A stretch of 64,000 nt of DNA, taken from positions 1-64,000 of the forward strand of contig JAJECK010000127.1 in the NCBI GenBank assembly GCA_022822085.1, in the 5' to 3' direction. The DNA comes from Candidatus Poribacteria bacterium (lineage in GTDB: Bacteria; Poribacteria; WGA-4E; WGA-3G). Below, one piece after another: positions 15,142 through 51,062 of the stretch (within the stretch, counting starts at the first letter, position 1; every line of letters begins with the position of its first letter). The notes below the pieces were generated by a model. The model saw only the letters and a program-made list of their open reading frames with translations, had not been told where the DNA came from and did no database searches. A program made the position numbers and the translations under genes.

Positions 15142-15306
15142 ATTGACCTCCATGAATAGATTATTAATGATTCAAGGACATCTACTCGTTAGTTGAACTC
15201 ATACTAATAGGATAACTCAGGAGGTCATTTGATACAAACTATAAGTAATTTTTACATAATCGTAGGACAATACATAATTTACCGCAAAACTGAAAAGGAA
15301 CAATAC

Positions 15307-17447
15307 ATGAAAAAACTATACTTTCTGATATTTTTATCATTTCTCGGATTTCATCTATCTTCATTAAATATCTTAGCACAGAATTGCACACAATTAAGTT
15401 TGCCTGACAATGCTTTCGCGCGTTTATGTATACCATCAGGCTACGGAGGAGCAGAAGATTTAGATTTTTCTCCTGATGGTCAAACGTTAGCGAGCCTAAT
15501 TTATAGAACAGGTCCAGCAAGCATCGTTTTATGGGACATTAAAAATAAAGTAGAAAAATTAACAATTAATTTTGGAAGTTATAACGACGGATATGGAATC
15601 TCAATTAGATTCTCACCTGACGGTAAGACGTTTGTTTGCGGTGATAAGTTGTATGATGCTTCAACTGGAGAACCAAAATTATTACTTTTAGATGGCGAGG
15701 GGTATAGAGATTATGTCATCTATTCTCCAGACGGTAAAACTTTAGCTGGGGCAGGTGCAAAAGGAATTCGTTTTGGAATGCAACTATAGAAGAACCTACA
15801 GAAGATGCGTCTCCTGTAGGTGATACACCTATTAATGTCCTGCCTACAGACACATCAACTATAGAAGCACCTAAAGCAGGTCCTACATCAGTTCCCTTCG
15901 CCACCTCATCTACTACAGTGCCTGGGATTCGTGGATTGAGTTATTCTCCTAATGGGAAAGAATTAGCGATTGCTTGTGATCTGGGTGTTTGGATATACGA
16001 CGTAGAATTAAACAGTGAAAAAGCATTACTGACACGAGAAATGGACGGTCATAAAGGACCAGTTTATTCAGCAGTATATTCTCCTGATGGAAATACTTTA
16101 GCAAGCACTGGATGGGATGGTATCCGCTTATGGGATGCCAGAACGAAAAAACATAAGATTATTCTTGATGATTATGGAGCTGTTTCACTAACATTTTCTT
16201 CAAAAAAAAATATATTGGTATCTACAAATAGAAACGCTGAAATACATTTTTGGGATGCTATAAATGGTGAATATAAATGGACTTTACTAGGGCATGAAGA
16301 CAACATACTGTCTTCCACATTTTCACCAGATGGCAAAACTATTGTGAGTTCATCTTCAGATCGAACAATTTTATTATGGGATTTTACATCCTATCCAATT
16401 GTCAGCATTTCACCAGACTCGGTTACATCTTTAACTGTCGGAGAAGAATTAGCATTTGATGTCAAAATTACGAACGGTAAAAATATGTCGACTTACCAAG
16501 CAACAATAGAATTTGATCCTGACGCACTTGAATATGTAGAAACAAAATACAGTGATTATTTATCTGGCGGCGTTCCCGTTCAACCCATTGCAAATCAACG
16601 TTCAGGGACAGTTAAACTTGCATCACTTTCTTTATCTGGTACTGAAACTGGTGGCGATGGAACACTTGCAACTATCAAATTTAAAGTGAACGCCATTAAA
16701 ACTTCAAAATTGGGTTTACGAGATGTTATCCTGTCTGACCCTGAAGGCAAGAAATCTTATGCTTGGATTGAAGGTGCAGAAATACTGAAAACCATTATTA
16801 CAGAGGATGGTGAAAGTATCATCTGCTCAACTGTTATCAGTGAAGATGTAAATAAGGACTGTGTTGTGAATATCCAAGATTTAGTGCTTGTTGCCACTAA
16901 TTTTGGAAAGGGCGGTGGAAATGCATCGGATGTGAATGGCGATGGAAGGGTTGATATCATAGACCTTGTGTTAGTTGCTGGAGCTTTTGGTAGTGCTGCA
17001 GATGCACCGTCACTCTATGGAAATGCACAGCAGGTGCTCTCTGCATTCAACGTACAAGAATGGCTGCAAGAGGCACAGAAAGTCAACTTAACAGATCCTA
17101 CTTTCCAACGTGGTATAGCGAATCTTCACAATCTTTTAGCATCGTTGATACCTGAAAAGACAATGTTGCTTGCTAACTATCCAAACCCGTTTAACCCAGA
17201 AACGTGGATACCGTATCAGTTAGCAAAGCCTGCCAATGTCACCATTTCTATCTATTCTGCGGGTGGGATGTTGGTTCGGACACTTGCATTGGGTAATCAG
17301 TCTGAGGGTCTCTATCAAAGTCGTGCCCGTGCGGCATATTGGGATGGAAAAAATGAAAGCGGTGAGTCTGTTGCAAGTGGAGTCTATTTCTATACGTTAA
17401 CCGCTGGCGAATTTTCTGCAACACGGAGAATGTTAATTTTGAAGTAG
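15307..17447 (+). CDS. Exported WD40/cohesin/dockerin protein, frameshifted
   Basis: A signal peptide (MKKLYFLIFLSFLGFHLSS...) is followed by WD40-type blades with repeated FSPDGKT and WD signatures up to about 16390. Then come a cohesin-like beta domain (about 16400-16790), a dockerin pair with calcium loops (DVNKDCVVNIQDL and DVNGDGRVDIIDL, 16840-16990), and the C-terminal NYPNPFNPETWIPY ... YWDGKN ... GVYFYTL sorting-type domain. The frame is lost at 15771-15774. Reading the upstream frame gives a stop at 15789, whereas shifting by one restores FWNATIEEPTEDASP and continues to 17447. The run TTTT needs one more T. The gene may be a pseudogene, phase-variable, or a sequencing error. Confidence 0.8.
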
Positions 17448-28092: not shown

Positions 28093-31000
28093 ATGGAGTT
28101 TGATAATAAATACATTATAATAATCAGTTGTTTATTCTTTTTGATTGCTGGTTTTCAAGTTGTAGACGCACAGGAAGATATTGCACAACAGGCTTATGCC
28201 ATCTTTCAGCAACACTGCCTCAGTTGCCACGGAGAATCTGGCGCATATAAGGATAGCCTCCTAATTGACCGCACCGCGCTTATTGATACTCAGGTCGTCA
28301 TCCCGGGCGCCCCAGAAAACTCAGAGTTCTATAAACGACTACTTGGGTCTACTGAAAAAGGACCGCAGATGCCACTTAATCTACCACCACTTTCACAGGA
28401 AACTATTCAAACAATCGCGCAATGGATTACTGCAGGTGCACCAGACTGGGATGTCCAGCGTGACATAAATTTTATTACCACAGATACAATACTTGGGACT
28501 ATCCAAACCCATCTGGAATCACTTGACGCCTTTGACCGTCCCTCTGCACGCTATTTTACATTAACACATCTCTATAATGCAGGTGAAAGTCCGCAGACAC
28601 TCAGTGACTATCGAATCGCACTCTCCAAACTGATAAATAGTCTTTCGTGGAAGCTTGAGATCACTAATCCTACACCCATTGATACCGCAAAAACAATTTT
28701 CTATATAGACCTACGCCACTACGAATGGAGGACCAGAACCGATGTCTGGGCACTAATTGAGCAGGTATATCCTTACAACATTGCGTTTGATTCTGAAACA
28801 CAAGCGGGTCTACTTGAAAAACTGACACAACTCCAAACTGAAACGGGCAGCACAGTGCCTTTTGTACATGCAGATTGGTTTCTCGCAACCGCATCGTTAC
28901 CACCCTTATATCATGATATTTTAGACCTGCCACAAACAGATCGTGCGTTGGAAACACAATTAGAAGTGAATGTTGAGAGTAATATCAGAAACGCACCAGG
29001 AATAAATGTCTGGCGGGCAGGATTCAACGATTCGGGAGTTTCCACAAACAACCGTGTTGTGGAACGACACGCATCTCGGGACGGTGCCTATTGGAAAAGT
29101 TACGACTTTGCAGGAAGCACAGATTCACAGAATATCTTTACACATCCACTTGATTTTACACACGATGGTGGCGAAATTATCTTCAATCTACCGAATGGGT
29201 TGCAGGCATATTTTCTGGTGGATGCTAACGGTACCCGGCTGAACGAGGCACCAATCGACATCGTTTCCAACCCAGCAGCCAGCGATCCTACGGTGCGAAA
29301 CGGTCTTTCTTGTATCGGGTGTCACGACCAAGGCATGAAAAAGTTTACTGACAGCGTACGAGCAGCAATTGAACAGGATCAAAACCCTCCGTATAACAGA
29401 GAACATGCGTTACGCCTCTATCCGGAGCAATCAAAACTTAATGAGTTACTGCAAAAAGATACGCAAAGGTTTCAACAGGCACTGGAAAAAATTGGCGGTC
29501 CATTTGAGGATGAAGAATCGAGGCAACAATTCTTCAAGCGACATGAAAACGAACCGGTCCAAAGGTTTCATGAAGTATTTCAAGGTCCGTTAGATGCATC
29601 ACATGCTGCCGCCGCAATCGGCTTAGAAACAGCAGTATTCCTCACACAGATAAGTGAGAAACAGAGTTTAAAAAACTTGGGATTACAAACACTCATAGAT
29701 GAAAATGGCAATGTGAAACGGGATGCATGGACATCAAATTTTCACGACATCATTACAGCATTGAATACACCGGACAGTGAGCTGCCGCCAGTTGTTGAAC
29801 GTCCAGATCGTATTCCTGGGGCGGGTGTCTATATTCCTGATGCGAATTTGCGTGCTGCAATTGAAGAAGCACTCGGTAAAGCAGCAGGTGAAGTGATTAC
29901 GGTAGAGGATATGGAGACGTTAAAAGAACTTAATATGGAAAAAAAGGAAATCGGTGATTTAACAGGGCTTCAGTATGCAACAAATTTGGAAGAATTAAAG
30001 ATTAGTCGAAACCCAATATCTGATCTATCACCACTCGCTGGACTAACAACATTAAAGACACTTGAAATTCATTGGACACAACTATCTGACCTATCACCTT
30101 TGGCAAAGTTAATTAACCTCCAGCACTTAGGAGCATGGGGCAAAGATTATACTGTGTCCGATCTATCACCACTTGCGAATTTGACCAACCTAAAACATTT
30201 AGATATGAGTGGCAGTAGAGAAATTACAGACATATCTCCCCTTGCAAACTTAAAAAATCTGACATATTTGCGTCTTTATGATAACTCAATATCAGATATT
30301 TCCGCGCTGGCAGGTTTAATTAATTTGGAAAAATTATTCGTAGAGGCAAATAACACAACTTTAAATCTCGCCCCCTTAGTTAATTTAACACGTCTAAAAG
30401 ATCTCAACCTCGCCAGCAACAAAATCTCGGACATATTTCCGCTGTCAGGATTAGACGCATTAGAATGCTTAAGTCTTGCCAAAAATAATATATCAGATAT
30501 ATCACCATTGGCAAAGCTTACAAATTTAAAAGAGTTGATTTTGGATAAGAATATAATCGAGGATGTATCCCCGTTAGCAGGACTTACGAACTTGATGATA
30601 TTAAACATCAGTAGAAACCCAATAACTGATTTCTCACCTTTAACGGAGCTCTTTGAAAATACAAATATAGTTTTTGATGTTGCTATTCCCGATCCAAATC
30701 TCCGCTCAATAATAGTGAAAGCACTTGAAAAAGAAGATGCTACTGCTCCGATTACGCTTCAAGAGATGGCAACACTAACACAATTGAGAGCAAGCAATAA
30801 GGACATCCATGATTTAACTGGTATTGAGTCCGCAATAAATCTGGAAGAGTTATGGATTTCAGGGAACCCTATATCTGATATCTCGCCACTTGCTGGATTG
30901 ACAAATTTTATTGGATTACATGCATGGAGAACGCCTTTATCTGATCTTACCCAACTTTCTGGATTGAAAAAACTGAGATGGTTAGACTTTGGTCACACCC

Positions 31001-33087
31001 CAACAGATGCAAATGGAGACTTAATTGAGAACTTAGATCTGGCACCGCTGGAAGGAATAACAAGCCTGAAAAAACTGACGTTTTATGCATGCGGTATACA
31101 AGACATATCTCCGCTTGCGGGTTTAACAGAATTGACACACTTGCGCCTTGGTGGTAACAGGCTATCGGATGCATCGGCTGTTGCAGGTTTAATAAACTTG
31201 GAACATTTGGATGTTCACCACGGTTCGTTATCCGATTTATCGCCGCTAGTAGAGTTAACTAAGCTGAAATACCTAAACCTTTACGACAATAGATTGATAT
31301 CCGATGTATCACCATTGGCAGGATTAACAAGTTTGACACAGCTTGAACTTCACCGAAACAAGATCATTGATGTTTCTCCTTTAGCAGGATTAATTAACTT
31401 GAAAAAACTAATCCTACGTGAAAATTTAATATCCGATATTTCTCCTTTGCAGGGATTGTCTAATGATACATATATTAGTTGGCTTAAAAATCCAGGGACA
31501 CCTGTAGAGGGACCGATAATAGAGGGTCCTTGGTTATGGATGCTGTTTCCAGACACACGCCTTGACAGCGAGATAGATTTGTTGGCAGAGATGAGTGACG
31601 GATTTGTAACGGAACATCAAATTGCTACCGAAGGTGCAATTGTGGGAAAGGCAGTTGGAGAAAATTTGTGGACAGCTCACAAAATTTCTTCTACAAGTAG
31701 AAATAATATCAAAGAAATATTAAGTATTTTCGGTTGGTCTGAAGATCAAGAGATTGATAGTAACGTTGTCTATGGTTCCATAATCTTAAGTTCAAAGTGG
31801 GAACAAAACACAAGGATGCTCATTGGGACTTCTGATAATTGCAAGATTTGGCTCAACGGTGAGTTGGTTCATCAAGACCTCAGACCTGGAGGAAGTGCGT
31901 ATGCCGAGTATGATATTTTTTTTCCAATCACCTTGAAACAGGGGACAAATGTTTTATTAGTCGCTGTTGACGATGGAAGCGATTGGTTCAACGGCTTTTT
32001 TGGATTTGAAGAAGGCACGGAGTATACATTAATTCCTCCTGGTGTCGGCTTCACATTTTCTGCAACGGAGACAACCCTTCTTTCAGGCGATATGTTTACA
32101 CTGAACCTCAACACAGAAAACATCACCGACTTAGCAGGCTGGCAAGCGGATATTATATTTGACCCCAATGTGCTTGAAGCAGTTGAAATCACTGAAGGAA
32201 ATTTTCTGAAGGCGGAAGGCAGAGATACTTACTTCCAAGCTGGTACGATTGATAATGCAGTAGGTAAGATAACAGGACTCAGTACCGCGCGGATTGCTGA
32301 GAATGGTGTCAGCGGCACAGGCACGCTACTATCTGTAAAATTCATAGCAAAGGCAGGCGGCGAAACACAAGTGACACTGGAAAACTTTGAATTCGGTTCT
32401 ATTACTGGTGATGTCATCCCATCTGTTCCGCCGAATATCACAATTACTGTCGGAGAATATCCCGCTTGGGATGTGAATCAGGATGGACGTGGGAGCGTTC
32501 TGGACCTCATTCTCGTAGCACGGGATTTGGGCTCAGACACACCTGCTAACTTAAGAACGGACGTCAATCGTGATGGCACTATCAACATCCAAGACCTTAT
32601 CATCGTTGCACAACACATCGGTGAAACTATAGACGACTCCGCCGCACCCGCAATCTTCGCTATTGACAACAAAGAATTAACGCCTGCAATGGTTCAAACA
32701 TGGATAGAACAAGCGCAACTTGAAGATGACGGTTCTATTGTTTTCCAACAAGGTATTGAAAACCTGCAGAAACTTTTAGCATCATTGCTTCCTGAAAAAA
32801 CTGCACTGTTAGCAAACTACCCTAACCCGTTCAATCCTGAGACATGGATCCCGTATCACCTCGCGAAGTCTGCGGATGTCACATTGACTATATATATGGC
32901 AAATGGTGTAGTAGTTAGGAGATTGGCACTTGGACATCAGACTGCCGGTATCTATCAGAATCGCAGCCGTGCAGCCTATTGGGATGGTAAAAACAGTGTG
33001 GGTGAACTCGTGGCAAGCGGTATCTACTTCTACACATTAACTACAGGAGATTTCACTGCAACGCGCAAGATGTTGATAAGGAAGTAA
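28093..33087 (+). CDS. Giant exported cytochrome c/LRR/cohesin/dockerin protein
   Basis: A 1664-residue secreted protein. After a signal peptide it has a cytochrome c-like domain with CLSCH (Cys42, Cys45, His46) and a second heme-type site CIGCH (Cys407, Cys410). Two internalin-type leucine-rich blocks follow (about 576-1140, unit ISDISPLAGLTNL), each opened by a cap of the IPDANLR type. Then come a PA14-like beta region (about 1150-1310, with LIGTSDNCKIWLNGELVHQD), a cohesin-like domain (1316-1455), a dockerin pair (about 1459-1512: DVNQDGRGSVLDL, DVNRDGTINIQDL) and the C-terminal sorting-type domain. GAGGGAGG precedes the ATG. The role of heme sites attached to an adhesion-like scaffold is unknown. 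Confidence 0.9.
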   Translation: MEFDNKYIIIISCLFFLIAGFQVVDAQEDIAQQAYAIFQQHCLSCHGESGAYKDSLLIDRTALIDTQVVIPGAPENSEFYKRLLGSTEKGPQMPLNLPPLSQETIQTIAQWITAGAPDWDVQRDINFITTDTILGTIQTHLESLDAFDRPSARYFTLTHLYNAGESPQTLSDYRIALSKLINSLSWKLEITNPTPIDTAKTIFYIDLRHYEWRTRTDVWALIEQVYPYNIAFDSETQAGLLEKLTQLQTETGSTVPFVHADWFLATASLPPLYHDILDLPQTDRALETQLEVNVESNIRNAPGINVWRAGFNDSGVSTNNRVVERHASRDGAYWKSYDFAGSTDSQNIFTHPLDFTHDGGEIIFNLPNGLQAYFLVDANGTRLNEAPIDIVSNPAASDPTVRNGLSCIGCHDQGMKKFTDSVRAAIEQDQNPPYNREHALRLYPEQSKLNELLQKDTQRFQQALEKIGGPFEDEESRQQFFKRHENEPVQRFHEVFQGPLDASHAAAAIGLETAVFLTQISEKQSLKNLGLQTLIDENGNVKRDAWTSNFHDIITALNTPDSELPPVVERPDRIPGAGVYIPDANLRAAIEEALGKAAGEVITVEDMETLKELNMEKKEIGDLTGLQYATNLEELKISRNPISDLSPLAGLTTLKTLEIHWTQLSDLSPLAKLINLQHLGAWGKDYTVSDLSPLANLTNLKHLDMSGSREITDISPLANLKNLTYLRLYDNSISDISALAGLINLEKLFVEANNTTLNLAPLVNLTRLKDLNLASNKISDIFPLSGLDALECLSLAKNNISDISPLAKLTNLKELILDKNIIEDVSPLAGLTNLMILNISRNPITDFSPLTELFENTNIVFDVAIPDPNLRSIIVKALEKEDATAPITLQEMATLTQLRASNKDIHDLTGIESAINLEELWISGNPISDISPLAGLTNFIGLHAWRTPLSDLTQLSGLKKLRWLDFGHTPTDANGDLIENLDLAPLEGITSLKKLTFYACGIQDISPLAGLTELTHLRLGGNRLSDASAVAGLINLEHLDVHHGSLSDLSPLVELTKLKYLNLYDNRLISDVSPLAGLTSLTQLELHRNKIIDVSPLAGLINLKKLILRENLISDISPLQGLSNDTYISWLKNPGTPVEGPIIEGPWLWMLFPDTRLDSEIDLLAEMSDGFVTEHQIATEGAIVGKAVGENLWTAHKISSTSRNNIKEILSIFGWSEDQEIDSNVVYGSIILSSKWEQNTRMLIGTSDNCKIWLNGELVHQDLRPGGSAYAEYDIFFPITLKQGTNVLLVAVDDGSDWFNGFFGFEEGTEYTLIPPGVGFTFSATETTLLSGDMFTLNLNTENITDLAGWQADIIFDPNVLEAVEITEGNFLKAEGRDTYFQAGTIDNAVGKITGLSTARIAENGVSGTGTLLSVKFIAKAGGETQVTLENFEFGSITGDVIPSVPPNITITVGEYPAWDVNQDGRGSVLDLILVARDLGSDTPANLRTDVNRDGTINIQDLIIVAQHIGETIDDSAAPAIFAIDNKELTPAMVQTWIEQAQLEDDGSIVFQQGIENLQKLLASLLPEKTALLANYPNPFNPETWIPYHLAKSADVTLTIYMANGVVVRRLALGHQTAGIYQNRSRAAYWDGKNSVGELVASGIYFYTLTTGDFTATRKMLIRK

Positions 33088-42093: not shown

Positions 42094-42432
42094 ATGCGTG
42101 ATGTACAACCACGAGAAATACATGTCTACCAGACTCAAAACGGCCGAGAACCTTTTTCTGAATGGTTAAGATCAATTCGTGATCAAGAAACACAAAGACG
42201 GCTTCGAACACGACTTGCTTACCTCAAAACTGGAAATTTTGGCGATTTCAAATCTGTTGGTGATGGTGTATTTGAACTCCGTTTGCACTTTAGGGCAGGT
42301 TACCGAATCTATTATAGTGAGGTAAGTAACACTATTGTGCTTTTGCTCTGTGGTGGAGACAAGTCATCACAAGCGCGAGATATTGAGCAAGCAAAAAGAT
42401 ACTGGTTGCAATATAAGGAGGCACACCGATGA
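42094..42432 (+). CDS. RelE/HigB-type toxin (type II TA)
   Basis: A 112-residue protein of the phage-derived Gp49/HigB-like family. Signature segments are GREPFSEWLRSIRD, RLRTRLAYLKTGNFGDFKSVGDGVFELRLHF, GYRIYYSE and LLLCGGDKSSQARDIEQAKRYW. These toxins cleave mRNA at the ribosome. Its stop overlaps the start of the next gene by four bases (ATGA), the usual toxin-first order of HigBA modules. Confidence 0.9.
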   Translation: MRDVQPREIHVYQTQNGREPFSEWLRSIRDQETQRRLRTRLAYLKTGNFGDFKSVGDGVFELRLHFRAGYRIYYSEVSNTIVLLLCGGDKSSQARDIEQAKRYWLQYKEAHR

Positions 42433-42821
42433 GAAAAATGAGAACATACCGTGAGTATCTTATTGAAATATTTACTGACCGTGAAGAGGCAATTGCACAC
42501 CTTGAAGTAGCATTGGAGGACTACCAAATCTACAGAAATAGCGATGTAGTTCTATTCTTACTACAGACCGTCGTAGAAGCACAAGGTGGTGTTTCTGAAC
42601 TTGCAAAGCAGGCAGATATGGATCCACAATTGCTTTCGAAAATACTATCCAATGAAGATACGCCTCTGATTGACGTTGTTGGAATTGTTCTTAAAGCGCT
42701 TGGATATCAACTTTCTATCAAACCGATAGAACCTGAAAACTCAACTAACGAAACCTATTCTGATACCTTAGAGATAGCAAACACATCAGCACAAGTAGCT
42801 GAAAATCCTACTACGACATAA
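42429..42821 (+). CDS. HigA-type antitoxin with helix-turn-helix
   Basis: A 130-residue protein with a C-terminal HTH: GGVSELAKQADMDPQLLSKILSNEDTPLIDVVGIVLKALGYQL. The N-terminal part, REEAIAHLEVALEDY, is typical of the addiction-module antidote proteins that follow HigB-like toxins. It should neutralise the toxin and repress the operon. The tail after residue 105 is low-complexity. Confidence 0.88.
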   Translation: MRKMRTYREYLIEIFTDREEAIAHLEVALEDYQIYRNSDVVLFLLQTVVEAQGGVSELAKQADMDPQLLSKILSNEDTPLIDVVGIVLKALGYQLSIKPIEPENSTNETYSDTLEIANTSAQVAENPTTT

Positions 42822-43599: not shown

Positions 43600-44319
43600 A
43601 TGACATCAAACAAAACACAACATTCTATAGTGAATATGAGTCCAACACAATTCCGCAATTGGCTCCATCAGATTATGAATAGTTCCTTGTTTACTGACCA
43701 AAACAAGCTTACCAATTTACTTACACAGGACGCTGACAGAGAAACCGTCGCAGAAGGATTTAGAGAATTCTATGAGTCCTATTCTTACGATTTAGCGTAC
43801 GAATTAGATGAGCAAGAGGAGTATGTGCTAAAAGTGTTGGACAAGAGTAAAGAGTTAATCCATCTAAAGCAACGAGTTTCAGTTGTTAAAAAACAACGGA
43901 AGACATCACACAACGGACGGATAGTGAGGAGACTTGGGGGAAAACCTGATAATGGACAATACCTGCAAAAGATAACAGATTTGTCTGACAACGAATTCAA
44001 AGCACTAATGGAGATACTCCTAAGTTCGAAACTATTTGCCGCGCGGGAACGAGTCGTTAAGTTGATGAAAGAACACGAAACACCTGTAAATCACGGACAG
44101 TTGCAATCTGTTTTTTATGAATTTTTCGTTTGTCACTTGGAATTGGAGCAAGTTCTGGAAGATTTTGAGTACGATCCCGACGAAGAATTGCAAATACATC
44201 CAAAAGTCGCTGAACAATTAGATAGTAGTATTGCTGACTACGAATCCGGAAAAGATAAAGGAAGGTCACTTGAGGAGGTAGCAAAGGAATTCAGAATTGA
44301 TTTGAAATGTACACATTAA
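43600..44319 (+). CDS. Putative antitoxin with duplicated helical domain
   Basis: A 239-residue protein I do not recognise. Two stretches look like copies of one helical unit: about residues 13-70 (MSPTQFRNWLHQIMNSSLF ... GFREFYESY) and 126-187 (LSDNEFKALMEILLSSKLF ... VFYEFFVCH). They are separated by a basic region containing VVKKQRKTSHNGRIVRR. The last 35 residues (SSIADYESGKDKGRSLEEVA) resemble the toxin-binding tails of RelB-like antitoxins. The gene overlaps the RelE-like toxin by 13 bases, so it is probably its antitoxin in an unusual, enlarged form. AAGGAAAC precedes the ATG. Confidence 0.55.
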   Translation: MTSNKTQHSIVNMSPTQFRNWLHQIMNSSLFTDQNKLTNLLTQDADRETVAEGFREFYESYSYDLAYELDEQEEYVLKVLDKSKELIHLKQRVSVVKKQRKTSHNGRIVRRLGGKPDNGQYLQKITDLSDNEFKALMEILLSSKLFAARERVVKLMKEHETPVNHGQLQSVFYEFFVCHLELEQVLEDFEYDPDEELQIHPKVAEQLDSSIADYESGKDKGRSLEEVAKEFRIDLKCTH

Positions 44320-44564
44320 TTTTATTAACGCGCGCTGAATCTGATTTGCTGCGATTGAGTGCACCAATCCAAACACGCATCCTCAACAAACTCCAACAAT
44401 TACGTCTAATTTGTGACGACTATCCACATAAAGCACTAAAAGGTGAACATAGAGGGAAATTCAGCTTGAAAGTCGCTAAGGACTATCGAATCCTCTATAC
44501 TATTGATAGACGTAACCGAGAAATTGTTGTGCATAGAGTTGGACATCGTAGCCGCATCTATTAA
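44307..44564 (+). CDS. RelE/ParE-type toxin
   Basis: An 85-residue toxin of the RelE superfamily. YTLILLTRAESDLLRLSAPI, LRLICDDYPHKALKGEHRGKFSLKVAKDYRILYTID and VVHRVGHRSRIY are typical, with the basic and aromatic C-terminal residues used for mRNA cleavage in RelE. It overlaps the preceding gene by 13 bases, indicating coupled translation. Confidence 0.9.
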   Translation: MYTLILLTRAESDLLRLSAPIQTRILNKLQQLRLICDDYPHKALKGEHRGKFSLKVAKDYRILYTIDRRNREIVVHRVGHRSRIY

Positions 44565-44648: not shown

Positions 44649-44677
44649 TTGAAATATCATCTCATTTAGGATATAAT
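44649..44677 (+). promoter_or_regulatory. Promoter of the porY-porX-like pair
   Basis: TTGAAA (44649-44654) and a perfect TATAAT (44672-44677) are 17 bases apart, about 50 bases before the histidine kinase ATG. Confidence 0.8.
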
Positions 44678-44726: not shown

Positions 44727-46211
44727 ATGACGAGGTGGAAACGTAGTATTACATCTACTTATCCGACTGGTCGGTTAATGCTGATATATTTCGGTGTCGG
44801 TGTATGTATTTTGGCACTCGTTTTCGCATATTATACGAGACAAATTTCTCAACTAAACACCGATATTGAAGCACAAATTGAAATCTTCGTAACTCTCGCA
44901 GCCGAGTTGCCAAGTATTGAAGACCGAGCACTACAGCAAAGACTACTCACTGTCATGAGACAGGAACTTTATGCTGAAAATAGGTCGAGAAAGTTTTCTT
45001 TTATTATCACTGACGCAGATGGAAAGGAGGTAATTTCTCAAGGGATTAACACAGAAATAGACGAAAAAGTCAACGGAAGTGACACCGTTTCGTTAACAAT
45101 AGATGAAAAACAACTGCTAAATACAACATTGGAAAGGATGAAAAGCAAAAATCAGCGGCGAAAAATACCTTTCCTAAAAGAAGATCGGCTGATAACTGGG
45201 TATTTTTACCACGGAGATGTAGCCCCAAGTGAGATGGAACAGCTTCCTTTTGCTATAACTGATACTGATAAGACCCCTCAGAAATGGCAGATGTGGAACG
45301 ACTTTATCACTGCTGAAAATGCAACACCAGAGCAAAAAGAGCGCGCACAGATCTTTGTTCAAAATACACCCACATTTAAACGGATTGAAACTACACCTGA
45401 TTGGCAACAAGGATATTTCTATTACGAAATAAAATCGTTCTATGGATTATTAATTACACCTATTGTGTTATCTACCGTTTTGTCACTCTTTGCATTCGGT
45501 TCTATTCTCGTCTATCGACGGATAAAATCCTATGAACATGCAGCAATCTGGGGCGGGTTAGCAAAAGAAACAGCACATCAACTCGGAACACCTATCTCTG
45601 CACTACTTGCATGGTCTGAAATGTTAGATGAACGCAGCAAAGAAACCGGAGATCAAGAACTCATTGAACTTTCAACAAACATGCAGAGCGACCTTGAGCG
45701 GTTACAGAAAACTACTACACGATTCGGAATGATCGGTACAGAACCGACAAAAACTACGGTTGACCTTCAGGAGGTACTTGCCGACGTACTAACATATTTT
45801 GAGAAACGACTGCCACAAGTCAGTCGCAATATAGATATAAATATAAAACAACATGATGTACCCGTAATTTCTGCAAATGCACTTTTGCTACAGTGGGTTT
45901 TCGAAAACTTAATCCGGAATTCGCTGGATGCAATACAGAAAAAAGCAGGACACATCGAAATTGAACCACTTTATGATGAACGACAGAAACAGGTTATCAT
46001 ACGATATGCTGACAACGGTAGCGGAATACCGAGCGAAAATCAAAGGTTTATTTTTGAACCCGGCATGACTACAAAAACACACGGTTGGGGGCTTGGGTTG
46101 ACTATAGTTCAAAGAATAATCAGGGAATATCATCACGGAAGCATACGATTAGTCGAAAGTAAACCAGGTAGAACAACTTTCGAAATACGATTGCCAACCA
46201 GTCTTTCATAG
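44727..46211 (+). CDS. porY: PorY-like sensor histidine kinase
   Basis: A 494-residue membrane histidine kinase. Helices near residues 17-36 and 240-265 frame a periplasmic sensor region. The H-box, AKETAHQLGTPISALLAW, has the phospho-acceptor His284. The catalytic core has the N-box FENLIRNSLDAI, DNGSGIP (G1) and GWGLGLTIVQRII (G2). The adjacent gene is a PorX-type response regulator, so I assign PorY by context. In the Bacteroidetes where PorXY was defined, the two genes are not usually adjacent. It is also possible that this is a general kinase and only the partner is PorX-like. Confidence 0.8.
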   Translation: MTRWKRSITSTYPTGRLMLIYFGVGVCILALVFAYYTRQISQLNTDIEAQIEIFVTLAAELPSIEDRALQQRLLTVMRQELYAENRSRKFSFIITDADGKEVISQGINTEIDEKVNGSDTVSLTIDEKQLLNTTLERMKSKNQRRKIPFLKEDRLITGYFYHGDVAPSEMEQLPFAITDTDKTPQKWQMWNDFITAENATPEQKERAQIFVQNTPTFKRIETTPDWQQGYFYYEIKSFYGLLITPIVLSTVLSLFAFGSILVYRRIKSYEHAAIWGGLAKETAHQLGTPISALLAWSEMLDERSKETGDQELIELSTNMQSDLERLQKTTTRFGMIGTEPTKTTVDLQEVLADVLTYFEKRLPQVSRNIDINIKQHDVPVISANALLLQWVFENLIRNSLDAIQKKAGHIEIEPLYDERQKQVIIRYADNGSGIPSENQRFIFEPGMTTKTHGWGLGLTIVQRIIREYHHGSIRLVESKPGRTTFEIRLPTSLS

Positions 46212-46230
46212 CGACTTCTGAGGAACATAT

Positions 46231-47805
46231 ATGCAACAAAAATTACATAAAATCCTATGGATAGATGATGAAATTGAGGCACTGCTGCCACATAGGCAAT
46301 CCCTTGAAACTCGCGGCTACGATGTCACGCCCGCTACAAACGGTGAAGATGGAATTGAACTGTTAAAACAAAATGATAACCAATACGATGCTATACTGCT
46401 TGACCAGGTTATGCCCGGCAAGGACGGCATGGAAACCTTAGATATTATACGAACTATTAACGCACAAGTACCCGTCATTCTGGTGACACAGTCAAGTGAC
46501 GACAAATTTGTTGATGTCGCTCTTGGAAAACAGGTGACGGATTTTTTAGTTAAACCTATTGGTGTCGCACAGATCGCTTCTACACTCAAACGGGTACTTG
46601 ACCAAAAACATATTGTGGAAACACAAATACCTGGACGATACACTAACGACTTTAACTCGATTAGCACCTTAAAGGCATCACAACCAAGTTGGCAAGATTG
46701 GATTGATATTTACGTCAAATTATTAGAATGGGACCTACTATCCGATCAATTGGCTAAACAAGGTTTAGAAGAAACGCACATAGAACAGAAAAAGGAGTGT
46801 AATGCTGAATTCTCCGATTTTGTACAAGATAATTATCCCGAATGGGTGAACGGTAGTCAAGACAGACCGCCACTGTCTGTTGATGTTTTAGACCAATATG
46901 TGGTGCCATTACTTAAAAATAATGTCCCAACCTACTTTATTGTCGTTGACTGCTTTAGACTTGACCACTGGATGGCTATAGAGCCTCTCTTATATCCTTA
47001 TTTTTCAATTGATCTAAAGTATAGTTTTTCCATTTTGCCAAGTGCAACAATGTACTCGCGGAACGCACTATTCAGCGGGATGTTCCCCGCAGAATTGGCT
47101 AAAAATTATCCGCAATATTGGCAGGAAAAATCTGATGGAGGCACAAGCACGAACCAGTTCGAACGACAAATGCTTGAAGAATTTTTAAAAAAGAATGGAA
47201 TCAGGATTAAGCCTGGTGTCCAATATTTCAAGATTTTCGACCTACGCGGAGGAGTTGAATACAAAAAACGTGTCGCCGCAGCCACACGAGTCGGGTTATC
47301 CGCATTAGTTGTCAACTTTATTGACATACTAACACATCAACGTTCACAATCAGAAGTATTGCAACAACTTGCACCAGATGAACCCGCGTTCCGAGCTTTA
47401 GCGCGCTCATGGTTTGCACATTCATCGCTCTTTGATATACTAAGACTGATTGCTGAACAAGGGGCACACGTTGTCCTCACAACCGACCACGGTTCAGAAT
47501 TTTGCAACCGAGCAACACGCGCTTATGGCAATAGAGACACAAGCACAAGCCTCCGATTTAAAATTGGGAATAACCTCGCTTGCGATGAAAATCAAGCGGT
47601 ATATATACCTAATCCACTGGAATATCAACTACCAGCTGAAACAGCAAGCAAGGATTATATTCTCGCAAAAGACGATTATTATTTCGTCTATCCAAACGAC
47701 TTTTACAAATACAAGCGGCAGTTTCAGGGTGGGTTCCAACATGGCGGTATTTCATTAGGAGAACTGATCACGCCTGTGGTAACACTCACTCCCAGGAACG
47801 GGTAA
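46231..47805 (+). CDS. porX: PorX-like response regulator with PglZ domain
   Basis: A receiver domain (residues 1-125) has Asp12, Asp13, the phospho-acceptor Asp58 (ILLDQVMPGKDG) and the signal Lys (FLVKP). A helical linker follows, then a PglZ/alkaline-phosphatase-like domain with FIVVDCFRLDHW, SILPSATMYSRNALFSGM and VVLTTDHGSEFC. This architecture and the position of Asp58 match PorX, which controls type IX secretion gene expression through a sigma factor in Porphyromonas and relatives and whose PglZ domain acts on nucleotides. It starts 19 bases after the kinase gene, with GAGGAAC before its ATG. No secretion-machinery gene lies in the window. Confidence 0.88.
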   Translation: MQQKLHKILWIDDEIEALLPHRQSLETRGYDVTPATNGEDGIELLKQNDNQYDAILLDQVMPGKDGMETLDIIRTINAQVPVILVTQSSDDKFVDVALGKQVTDFLVKPIGVAQIASTLKRVLDQKHIVETQIPGRYTNDFNSISTLKASQPSWQDWIDIYVKLLEWDLLSDQLAKQGLEETHIEQKKECNAEFSDFVQDNYPEWVNGSQDRPPLSVDVLDQYVVPLLKNNVPTYFIVVDCFRLDHWMAIEPLLYPYFSIDLKYSFSILPSATMYSRNALFSGMFPAELAKNYPQYWQEKSDGGTSTNQFERQMLEEFLKKNGIRIKPGVQYFKIFDLRGGVEYKKRVAAATRVGLSALVVNFIDILTHQRSQSEVLQQLAPDEPAFRALARSWFAHSSLFDILRLIAEQGAHVVLTTDHGSEFCNRATRAYGNRDTSTSLRFKIGNNLACDENQAVYIPNPLEYQLPAETASKDYILAKDDYYFVYPNDFYKYKRQFQGGFQHGGISLGELITPVVTLTPRNG

Positions 47806-48191
47806 TTTGTCTGAATCATCCGTTCAAAAACTGTATTATGGTAGATTTTAGAATTATTTGAACTATATTAAGCTATAGAGAGGACTCCAATCCTAAATAT
47901 CAATACATTTGATCTCGATGAGAAAATCATTTCTATAGAATAAAGACTATTTAATTTTAGAATTCACCATAACTATTAGGAATTTAATGATTATGGTAAT
48001 TAATGTTACATCCTTTCAAAGTAACCTGCAACGATCCGATCATCAAGGTTCAGTCCGATTTCCTTCCATCATCTCACAGAAATTGAACCATCGGAATTTA
48101 TCATACATAAAGCTGCCGCTTTTTGAAATGACAGAATTCATTAACCGAGATGTCTTTCCTGTGAAAGGCATGATAGGAGGAAACGTTAATA
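47806..48191. other. Intergenic region without recognised gene
   Basis: A 386-bp gap. One open frame (47987-48217) overlaps the rng start and lacks a ribosome-binding site and family-like features. No hairpin or promoter pair stands out. Confidence 0.45.
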
Positions 48192-49739
48192 ATGGAAAAG
48201 GAGATACTTATTTCTGATGATGAGTACGAAACACGTTGTGCTGTACTTGAGAAAGGAGTACTAAACGAAATTCAAATTGAACGGAAAGCGACAAAACCTG
48301 TTTTAGGGAACCTATACAAAGGACGCGTTGAAAACGTGCTACCAGGAATGCAAGTGGCTTTTGTTGATATCGGATTGGAACGACACGCTTTTCTACATAT
48401 TTCTGACCTGAAATACAACAACGCTGAAGATGGAAATGGGGATGAAGGATTACCTACTATTGATTTGCAGGCGACACCAGCAAACAAAACACGCGGCGGA
48501 AGAGGATTCCCATATCTCATTACCGATCTCATCTCAAAAAATCAGGAACTTCTCGTGCAAGTCGGTAAAGAACCCATCGGCAGTAAAGGGGCAAGAGTCA
48601 CCAGCAATATAACTCTTCCAGGAAGATACGTCGTTTATCTACCAAACTCTTCTACAATTGGAGTTTCAAGAAGAATTGAAACCGAAAGTGAACGTGAACG
48701 ATTACGGGACTTAGCACAAACCTTAAAAGCAGATGTTGAGGGCGGATTCATCATCCGTACTGCCGCTGAAGGCTTAAGCGAAGAGGAATTTACAGCTGAA
48801 ATACGATACCTAATCAATCAGTGGAAACAGGCATTAAAACGCTCAAAACATAAAACCGCCCCCAGTTTAATCGGTAGAGATCTGAGTTTCATAAACCGAA
48901 TTGTCCGAGATAAATTTACTAAAGATGTTAAACACCTTCTCATTGATTCGCCATCGGGGCATAAGGAAATGATTGATTATGTTACATCAGTAATGCCGAG
49001 TTTGAAAGAGCGGATTTCACTTTATGATGAAGACACTCCGCTCTTTAGTGCTTACGGTGTCGATCAAGAATTGCAAAAAGCACTCAGTGAAAAAATATGG
49101 CTACAGTGTGGTGGACACATCATTATACAACAGACTGAAGCAATGGTTTCCATTGATGTCAATACAGGACGATTCGTCGGACAATCAGACCCAGATAACA
49201 CTATTCTCAGCGCGAACCTTGAAGCTGTTGATGAAGTCGTACGACAGATACAATTGCGAGATTTAGGAGGAATTATCGTTGTTGACTTCATTGATATGGA
49301 CGAACCCGCACATCGTAGGCAGGTATTCAAATTGCTGCAAGAGGCACTAAGAAAGGACAAAGCACGCACCAATATCTTACATTTTTCTGATTTAGGGTTG
49401 GTCGAGATGACACGTCAACGCACGCGTCCAAGTCTCGCTACCTTGCTAACAGAACAGTGTCCTTATTGCGAAGGGCATGGCACAATTCTATCAATTGAAA
49501 CCGTTGTTATAAGCCTATTCCGAGCAATAAAAAGAGCACATCGCCAAACCCGACAATCTAAAATCCGAATCATCGCAAATGATCATATCGTTTCGCATCT
49601 CAACGCGCAGATGTCCGCAAAATTTCGAGAACTGAAGAAATCGTTGAAGTTGGATTTGCTCCTTGAACCTGACGCAGACCTGCATCTTGAAGATTATCGC
49701 ATCTTCGCTGCAAACGGTGAAGAACTCTTTTTGGATTAA
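48192..49739 (+). CDS. rng: Ribonuclease G/E
   Basis: An endoribonuclease that processes 16S rRNA and mRNA. An N-terminal S1-like domain (NLYKGRVENVLPGMQVAFVD and ERHAFLHISDL) is followed by the DNase I-like and RNase H-like catalytic segments VSIDVNTGRFVG and GGIIVVDFIDM, and by the zinc-link CPYCEGHGTI. The length of 515 residues matches RNase G rather than the long RNase E. AGGAGG lies at the right distance before the ATG. In many genomes rng lies just upstream of rplU-rpmA, as it does here with one small gene between. Confidence 0.95.
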   Translation: MEKEILISDDEYETRCAVLEKGVLNEIQIERKATKPVLGNLYKGRVENVLPGMQVAFVDIGLERHAFLHISDLKYNNAEDGNGDEGLPTIDLQATPANKTRGGRGFPYLITDLISKNQELLVQVGKEPIGSKGARVTSNITLPGRYVVYLPNSSTIGVSRRIETESERERLRDLAQTLKADVEGGFIIRTAAEGLSEEEFTAEIRYLINQWKQALKRSKHKTAPSLIGRDLSFINRIVRDKFTKDVKHLLIDSPSGHKEMIDYVTSVMPSLKERISLYDEDTPLFSAYGVDQELQKALSEKIWLQCGGHIIIQQTEAMVSIDVNTGRFVGQSDPDNTILSANLEAVDEVVRQIQLRDLGGIIVVDFIDMDEPAHRRQVFKLLQEALRKDKARTNILHFSDLGLVEMTRQRTRPSLATLLTEQCPYCEGHGTILSIETVVISLFRAIKRAHRQTRQSKIRIIANDHIVSHLNAQMSAKFRELKKSLKLDLLLEPDADLHLEDYRIFAANGEELFLD

Positions 49740-49751
49740 TCCTTCACATAC

Positions 49752-49804
49752 ACTTGCCCAATAATGTACAGGTAAGATATGAAAATGCACATAATTGGGC
49801 AAGT
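49752..49804. repeat. Long hairpin downstream of rng
   Basis: ACTTGCCCAAT (49752-49762) and ATTGGGCAAGT (49794-49804) form an 11-bp perfect stem, extended inward by an imperfect ATGTACA/TGCACAT. There is no T-run. It may terminate rng transcription or be a small palindromic element. Confidence 0.55.
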
Positions 49805-49895
49805 TCTCATCAGATAGTTCATAATTTCCTGCATAAATTGGCATATAACTTGCTTAATGCATTGCAAAACAAAGAACAGATTAGGAGGCAGTCTG

Positions 49896-50351
49896 ATGCC
49901 TAAATTCAACCTTCTCTTTACTTTATTTCTTATCATTGTTCTTGTTATCACAGGCAATGTCTATTCACATCAGTACGCTCCTCGACCTAAACCGACGTTC
50001 CCATATACGAAATTTTCACAAAAACCTAAGGTTGTTCGAAGAGTTAAGATACAGGTACCAAAAGTGCACGATGTTGAGATGGATAAAATCACACCAAGTC
50101 TAACGACAATTCCGGAAACACAAGACCATAATTTACGTGAATTTGACATATTACCTGTCCTAAATCTGAACTTCTTACAAGTTCCCAAAGCAATTATCTG
50201 TTGTACTATTGGGCATGTCTGTATTGGCGAAGTTCCAGGACCATCATTATTATCGCCGATAATTGGTCCCATTGCAGATCCGTTTAATGGTGACTTCAGC
50301 GAAACAATGAGTTTAGAAGAGTTCTTCTTATGGCTGAGGCGTAATAGATAG
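49896..50351 (+). CDS. Small exported protein of unknown function
   Basis: A 151-residue protein with a clear signal peptide (LLFTLFLIIVLVITGNVYS). The start at 49896 is supported by AGGAGG (49883-49888). The mature part is Pro/Lys-rich at first (APRPKPTFPYTKFSQKPK) and contains CCTIGHVCIGEVPGPS, three cysteines that could form disulfides or bind metal. It is not recognised. It lies between rng and rplU on the same strand. Confidence 0.6.
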   Translation: MPKFNLLFTLFLIIVLVITGNVYSHQYAPRPKPTFPYTKFSQKPKVVRRVKIQVPKVHDVEMDKITPSLTTIPETQDHNLREFDILPVLNLNFLQVPKAIICCTIGHVCIGEVPGPSLLSPIIGPIADPFNGDFSETMSLEEFFLWLRRNR

Positions 50352-50699
50352 GAAGACGATTAGGAACCTTGACACAATCCCGAACAGAAAAACAAACTGA
50401 TTTGTAAATAACAGCATAAGCGTTTGTAGTCGTGCAATCCATTGATGCTCTTTTTAGGCTTACAAAGCCCACTAACAAGAAAATCACACGGTTAATGCAC
50501 AAATATTTAAACACTCCATGTTTCAAAAAAACTTGACTTACCACCAAAAATGTGGTATTATGTATATTGTCCGAATTATAAATATGGGCGGGTAGGTGCG
50601 TCCAATGCTCATACACATTACAGCCTAAGCAAAAAATAGAAAATAGAACATTCCACAGACATTCTTCGGAATTTCTACACCTAAAAGGAGTGAAAACAA
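50352..50699 (+). promoter_or_regulatory. rplU-rpmA upstream region with promoter at 50533-50561
   Basis: TTGACT (50533-50538) and TATTAT (50556-50561) are 17 bases apart, giving an rplU leader of about 130 bases. Between the previous gene and this promoter I see nothing coding. The ACCACAAAA... region holds CCACCAAAAATGTGG, a small palindrome between the two boxes that could be an operator. Confidence 0.65.
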
Positions 50700-51062
50700 A
50701 TGTATGCAGTATTTGCAAGCGGTGGGAGACAGCATCGTGTTGAGGTGGGAAACCTCATAGATATAGAAAAGTTGGACAATGCTGTTGGTGAAACAGTCAC
50801 ATTTCCTTCCGTTTTAGCGATTGCCGGTGAAGACGGTCAGTTGCAAGCAGGAACCCCTTACCTTGAAAACGTCTCGGTTACAGGTGAAGTCGTTGAACAG
50901 GGACGTGCAAAGAAAATCGTCGTTTTTAAATCCAAACGACGTAAAGGCTACAAACGAAAAATGGGGCACCGACAATCATATACACGTATCAAAATTACCG
51001 CAATTGGTGGTGAGGAAATTACCGCAAATGACGGAGAGGAGGTGGAATCCAATGGCACATAA
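50700..51062 (+). CDS. rplU: 50S ribosomal protein L21
   Basis: L21 binds 23S rRNA in the large subunit. [18 protein letters not shown] at the start and [24 protein letters not shown], the RNA-binding end, are diagnostic. It has 120 residues, with a short acidic C-terminal extension. Its last codons encode the AGGAGG used by rpmA, and the two genes overlap by 11 bases. AAAAGGAG precedes the ATG. Confidence 0.96.

Follow-up and report, generated by a model that had tools for sequence, protein, structure and literature searches.

The PorX/PorY pair is best described in Porphyromonas gingivalis, where porX (PGN_1019) and porY (PGN_2001) lie about 1000 genes apart and PorY is a protein of 395 aa with transmembrane (TM) helices at residues 14-36 and 149-173 and its histidine at H193 (PMC5005315). 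PorX is known to dimerise and to act as a phosphodiesterase. The Porphyromonas protein was reported to act on oligonucleotides, and activity of the Flavobacterium protein was reported with a model substrate (PMC10951265). The known partner of PorX in Bacteroidota is PorL, and PorX of Flavobacterium johnsoniae (Fjoh_2906) binds GldL (PMC10951265). In Poribacteria, proteins with a C-terminal sorting domain (CTD) have been reported, while structural Por genes were not found and the export route was left open (Kamke et al. 2014, PMC3909097). The phylum is absent from a list of phyla possibly having a type IX secretion system (T9SS; PMC11285876). Among open-licence papers, our searches turned up none describing PorXY or structural components of a T9SS in this phylum.

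The window, that is, the whole stretch of 64,000 nucleotides that was analysed, comes from a draft genome of 5.63 Mb and 96.5% completeness, in which it is contig 54. It contains a kinase gene and porX on the same strand, and the following features were annotated.

44649..44677, + strand, promoter-like site TTGAAA-17-TATAAT, 11/12 consensus matches
44727..46211, + strand, porY-type sensor histidine kinase, 494 aa
Kinase residues 17-35, TM1, from a hydropathy script
Kinase residues ~36-241, periplasmic sensor, about 205 residues
Kinase residues 242-260, TM2, from a hydropathy script
45576-45578, + strand, codon of kinase His284
46216..46230, + strand, intergenic stretch with Shine-Dalgarno-like GAGGA before porX, read from the sequence
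46231..47805, + strand, porX, 524 aa
46402-46404 (GAC), + strand, codon of PorX Asp58
PorX Asp12, Asp13, Asp58, Thr86 and Lys108, residues of the CheY-like receiver
PorX Asp240, Thr273, Asp365, His369, Asp419, His420 and His504, residues of PglZ, the phosphodiesterase-type domain after the linker
48192..49739, + strand, RNase E/G gene downstream of porX

Judged by its sequence, the response regulator is PorX. Its receiver (75.9 bits) and PglZ domain (59.4 bits) both scored above the Pfam cut-offs, and the NCBIfam PorX equivalog NF052313 matched with 577 bits against a cut-off of 300, over model positions 2-513 of 513. The closest PDB chains over the full length were the PorX structures 7pv7 and 8ted. 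A sequence-only reading of the window had taken Asp58 and the PglZ domain as the PorX architecture, and these matches confirmed it. The domain order, Asp58 and the active site are common to P. gingivalis PorX, and the F. johnsoniae protein has the same architecture and the same Zn/Thr active-site residues (PMC10951265). The alignment of PorX1, as distinct from the second PorX (PorX2) treated below, comprised 60 rows, into which a few genomes enter twice. The five receiver residues listed above were invariant in 60/60 rows, as were the Zn1 and Zn2 ligands and the catalytic Thr of PglZ (residue list from PMC10951265). The PglZ domain is also common to BREX PglZ proteins; a BREX/PglZ defence function was rejected, with 99 bits for the BREX-3 PglZ model NF033449 against its cut-off of 250.

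The kinase is supported as PorY type by its layout and its co-occurrence with PorX, P. gingivalis PorY being compared through its published layout only. As in that protein, there are two TM helices, no HAMP domain, and a histidine soon past TM2 (about 24 residues), so that the earlier description of a two-helix histidine kinase held. The periplasmic sensor is larger, at about 205 residues against about 115 in P. gingivalis PorY. HATPase_c was above its Pfam cut-off and HisKA beneath it (20.5 vs 26.9), and no PorY model was among the NCBIfam top matches. The AlphaFold model had the form of an ordinary histidine kinase; a fold search with it returned ordinary histidine kinases, mostly via the catalytic core, and no informative match for the sensor.

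Across lineages, the kinase family appeared narrow. An AHQ[LF]GTP motif with the histidine 18-29 residues past TM2, as placed by the hydropathy script used for all kinases, was seen in 29/30 kinase loci inspected; at the thirtieth (L207) the script picked another ORF. One member (L213) has 395 aa, TM helices at 10-28 and 150-168, and H193. A profile search of 32 genomes of other lineages, all selected for carrying PorX, found one strong family member in each (32/32), usually far from porX, with a second, weaker match in two. By these searches the kinase does not appear to fall with unrelated sensors; it groups with one family that has a single strong member in each of the 32 genomes and the published PorY layout.

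The region 44727-47805 most likely represents a two-gene porY-porX operon, a reading in keeping with the conservation of the gene order. The adjacency of the two genes, with coordinates 44727-46211 and 46231-47805 and 19 bases between them, was verified. The promoter-like site lies about 50 bases ahead of the kinase ATG. Because such matches are no commoner in the region than in shuffled sequence (10 vs 10.6), the promoter is plausible only, although the match itself is good. The kinase was located directly upstream of porX in 57/57 Poribacteria genomes examined. Outside the phylum, it was upstream on the same strand in 13/72 loci, directly in 12 of them and at 720 bases in one (L142). These loci belonged to Zixibacteria, one Krumholzibacteriia, one Latescibacterota and several further bins, some possibly misnamed. 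The linked pair proposed outside Bacteroidetes was thus borne out phylum-wide and is not unique to the phylum.

Unlinked loci came from Ignavibacteria, Kapabacteria, Cloacimonadota, Calditrichota, Marinimicrobia, Balneolota and Gemmatimonadales, and some loci counted as unlinked had upstream sequence too short to tell. Since most loci outside the phylum were unlinked, the sampled lineages support the earlier view that porY and porX usually lie apart; for Bacteroidia proper this view draws on the P. gingivalis literature. In the PorX tree, rooted at its midpoint, a single group of 57 rows (support 97) takes in most of the unlinked lineages, two Latescibacterota rows lying apart. This topology would fit one main separation of porY and porX. 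The linked pair offers a natural assignment of PorY and PorX partners for lineages in which the genes are apart. One linked locus lies on a contig named Ignavibacterium (L160), and its PorX groups with Zixibacteria, indicating either a misnamed bin or a transfer.

A search for sov, porU, porV and porK-N had been suggested, and the components recovered were a SprA/Sov homologue, the PorV family, PorU-like C25 proteins and CTDs; PorL and PorM were not detected. The SprA/Sov-like protein (contig C122, 2137 aa) scored 150 bits in five pieces, under the cut-off of 200. In a profile-profile comparison with hhalign, nine Poribacteria SprA-like proteins matched nine SprA proteins of other lineages with probability 100 and E=7e-101 over 1548 columns. 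The SprA profile gave no match against PDB, so the homology rests on the comparison with the other SprA profile. The SprA signal was present in 35/35 good Poribacteria genomes tested. Seven proteins of this genome exceeded the cut-off of 90 for the PorV family, scored with the PorV/PorQ subfamily model and not the PorV equivalog. Three PorU-like C25 proteins scored 418, 387 and 347 bits to the PorU equivalog (cut-off 420), and the best PDB chain of the one tested was PorU (6za2). All three carry a CTD match at the C-terminus; two of these exceed the cut-off, and the third, at 22.3 vs 23 in the protein scan, falls just short. CTDs above the cut-off numbered 51 in this genome.

By these matches, this Poribacteria genome has SprA, PorV-family, PorU-like and CTD proteins, among them candidates for a type IX channel, its shuttles and its sortases. 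Scores falling just under curated cut-offs may be why structural genes were missed earlier. Since the phylum now offers candidates for the channel, the shuttles, the sortases and the regulators, the route of CTD protein export in Poribacteria becomes testable. In gene arrangement, one of the PorU-like C25 genes is followed by a PorV-family gene (L251:2041-9602), like porU-porV of P. gingivalis, and pairs of CTD and PorV genes also occur on contigs C25, C44 and C158.

Poribacteria share with the known type IX system SprA/Sov, the PorV family, CTD cargo, PorX, PorY and CTD-bearing PorU-like C25 proteins; their SprA and PorU are divergent, and the motor proteins PorL and PorM were not detected. 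GldM/PorM was not found in this genome at E<=10 or at 1e-5 in 46 Poribacteria, and matched in 1/30 other genomes. GldL gave no match above the cut-off in 30 Poribacteria, and a search of 40 genomes at 0.001, including 10 Poribacteria, was likewise negative. The GldL model was above its cut-off in 18/80 Bacteroidota genomes used as a control, whereas the GldM model was used without a comparable positive control. SprA was present in nearly all genomes searched for GldL and GldM. The negative result accordingly concerns matches to two family models and does not show that the function is absent; the proteins may have diverged. The partners of PorX in Bacteroidota, PorL in general and GldL in F. 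johnsoniae, thus have no detected counterpart here, which raises the question of how SprA is energised outside Bacteroidia and which target PorX has there. Poribacteria and most SprA lineages outside Bacteroidia might even run type IX secretion without the PorL/PorM motor, a possibility we regard as rather doubtful. PorXY would then be tied to SprA and not to the motor, and motor binding by PorX would therefore be a later addition in Bacteroidia; PorX2 would be a phosphorylation-independent enzyme.

Two candidate cargo proteins are encoded in the window.

17178..17438, + strand, T9SS-type sorting domain (CTD) of the WD40/cohesin/dockerin ORF 15918-17447, candidate cargo
32818..33078, + strand, T9SS-type sorting domain (CTD) of the LRR/cohesin/dockerin protein 28093-33087, candidate cargo

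Both domains exceeded the TIGR04183 cut-off of 23 (32.0 and 30.8 bits). The two CTDs pointed out earlier are thus real, but the ORF then given as 15307-17447 is not intact. The gene spans 15229-17447, with residues 1-186 (15229-15789) and the remainder (15918-17447) in different frames and an apparent small indel near 15785. Either the gene is frameshifted or the assembly is in error here. The protein at 28093-33087 shows an N-terminal cytochrome-c-like segment (under the Pfam cut-off), leucine-rich repeats, cohesin, dockerin and CTD.

We consider it probable that the locus is a cognate porY-porX operon whose output is type IX secretion of CTD proteins. This proposal draws on PorX family membership, kinase layout and co-occurrence, operon conservation and the presence of SprA, PorV, PorU-like and CTD proteins, all read from sequence. 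The PorY-type kinase would use its enlarged periplasmic domain to sense a signal in the envelope, autophosphorylate at His284 and pass the phosphoryl group to PorX Asp58. Phospho-PorX would dimerise, and its PglZ domain would act as a metal-dependent phosphodiesterase on oligonucleotides. PorX activity would then set the output of a type IX system in which a divergent SprA is the translocon, PorV proteins are the shuttles and PorU-like C25 proteins the sortases. This system would export CTD proteins, so that porYX may govern secretion of the cohesin/dockerin proteins of the window. For this organism, we infer the phosphotransfer, the enzymatic activity of PorX and secretion as the output. Counted against the proposal are the lack of an adjoining secretion gene, the undetected PorL/PorM, and the SprA (150/200) and PorU (418/420) scores under their cut-offs.

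The genomic neighbours bear on a first alternative. Wherever the flanking sequence is long enough, the gene after porX in Poribacteria is that for RNase E/G, and in many loci rplU comes next; RNase E/G was not seen adjoining porX in other lineages (neighbourhood 46231-51062). No secretion gene was found adjoining the operon, and a direct tie to one was rejected. A cognate PorY-PorX pair could signal by way of oligonucleotide turnover, perhaps with RNase E/G, with the type IX co-occurrence arising by shared ancestry. The porY-porX-rng order kept across the phylum, the undetected PorL and the phosphodiesterase nature of PorX (PMC10951265) are in line with this. However, PorX, the kinase and SprA co-occur over the sampled lineages, though in genomes selected for PorX, and we judge an output other than secretion to be fairly unlikely.

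A second PorX occurs in many of the related genomes. In this genome PorX2 is encoded at C77:10480-12099 (- strand; locus L039), and most genomes of families f1, f2, f3 and f8 have such a copy. PorX2 forms one clade (support 100) within the Poribacteria group of the PorX tree, and its loci are orphan, having no kinase alongside. Asp58 was lost in 24/28 copies (Asn in 22, Ser in 2) and Lys108 in 17 of 28; from these residues and the tree, at least two losses of Asp58 are the simplest reading. In PglZ, all active-site residues are conserved. Where the flanks reach, most PorX2 loci have an FAD-oxidase gene ahead of PorX2 and a DsbD gene behind it, with a TPR gene following DsbD in longer loci. A link of this DsbD neighbour to the GldK-PorG disulfide mechanism (PMC12635249) was set aside as a mere thought. 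PorX2 without a PorX1 match was seen in two genomes (G028 and G040), each about 94-95% complete.

PorX2 could thus be the protein acting on secretion in Poribacteria, with PorYX serving another circuit, as the intact active site, the fixed neighbourhood with DsbD and the two genomes that appear to have PorX2 only would allow. We hold this to be very improbable, since several families with SprA and PorX1 are without PorX2 and in most copies the receiver has lost its phospho-acceptor. Least credible of all is an unrelated sensor standing before porX by chance, which the sub-threshold HisKA and the missing PorY model would permit but which is opposed by the 57/57 linkage in the phylum, the linkage in other phyla, the single kinase copy per PorX genome and the PorY layout.

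Upstream of porY, two small gene pairs at 42094-42821 and 43600-44564 look toxin-antitoxin-like by eye. The sole match for these pairs was a sub-threshold antitoxin match at 43600-44316.
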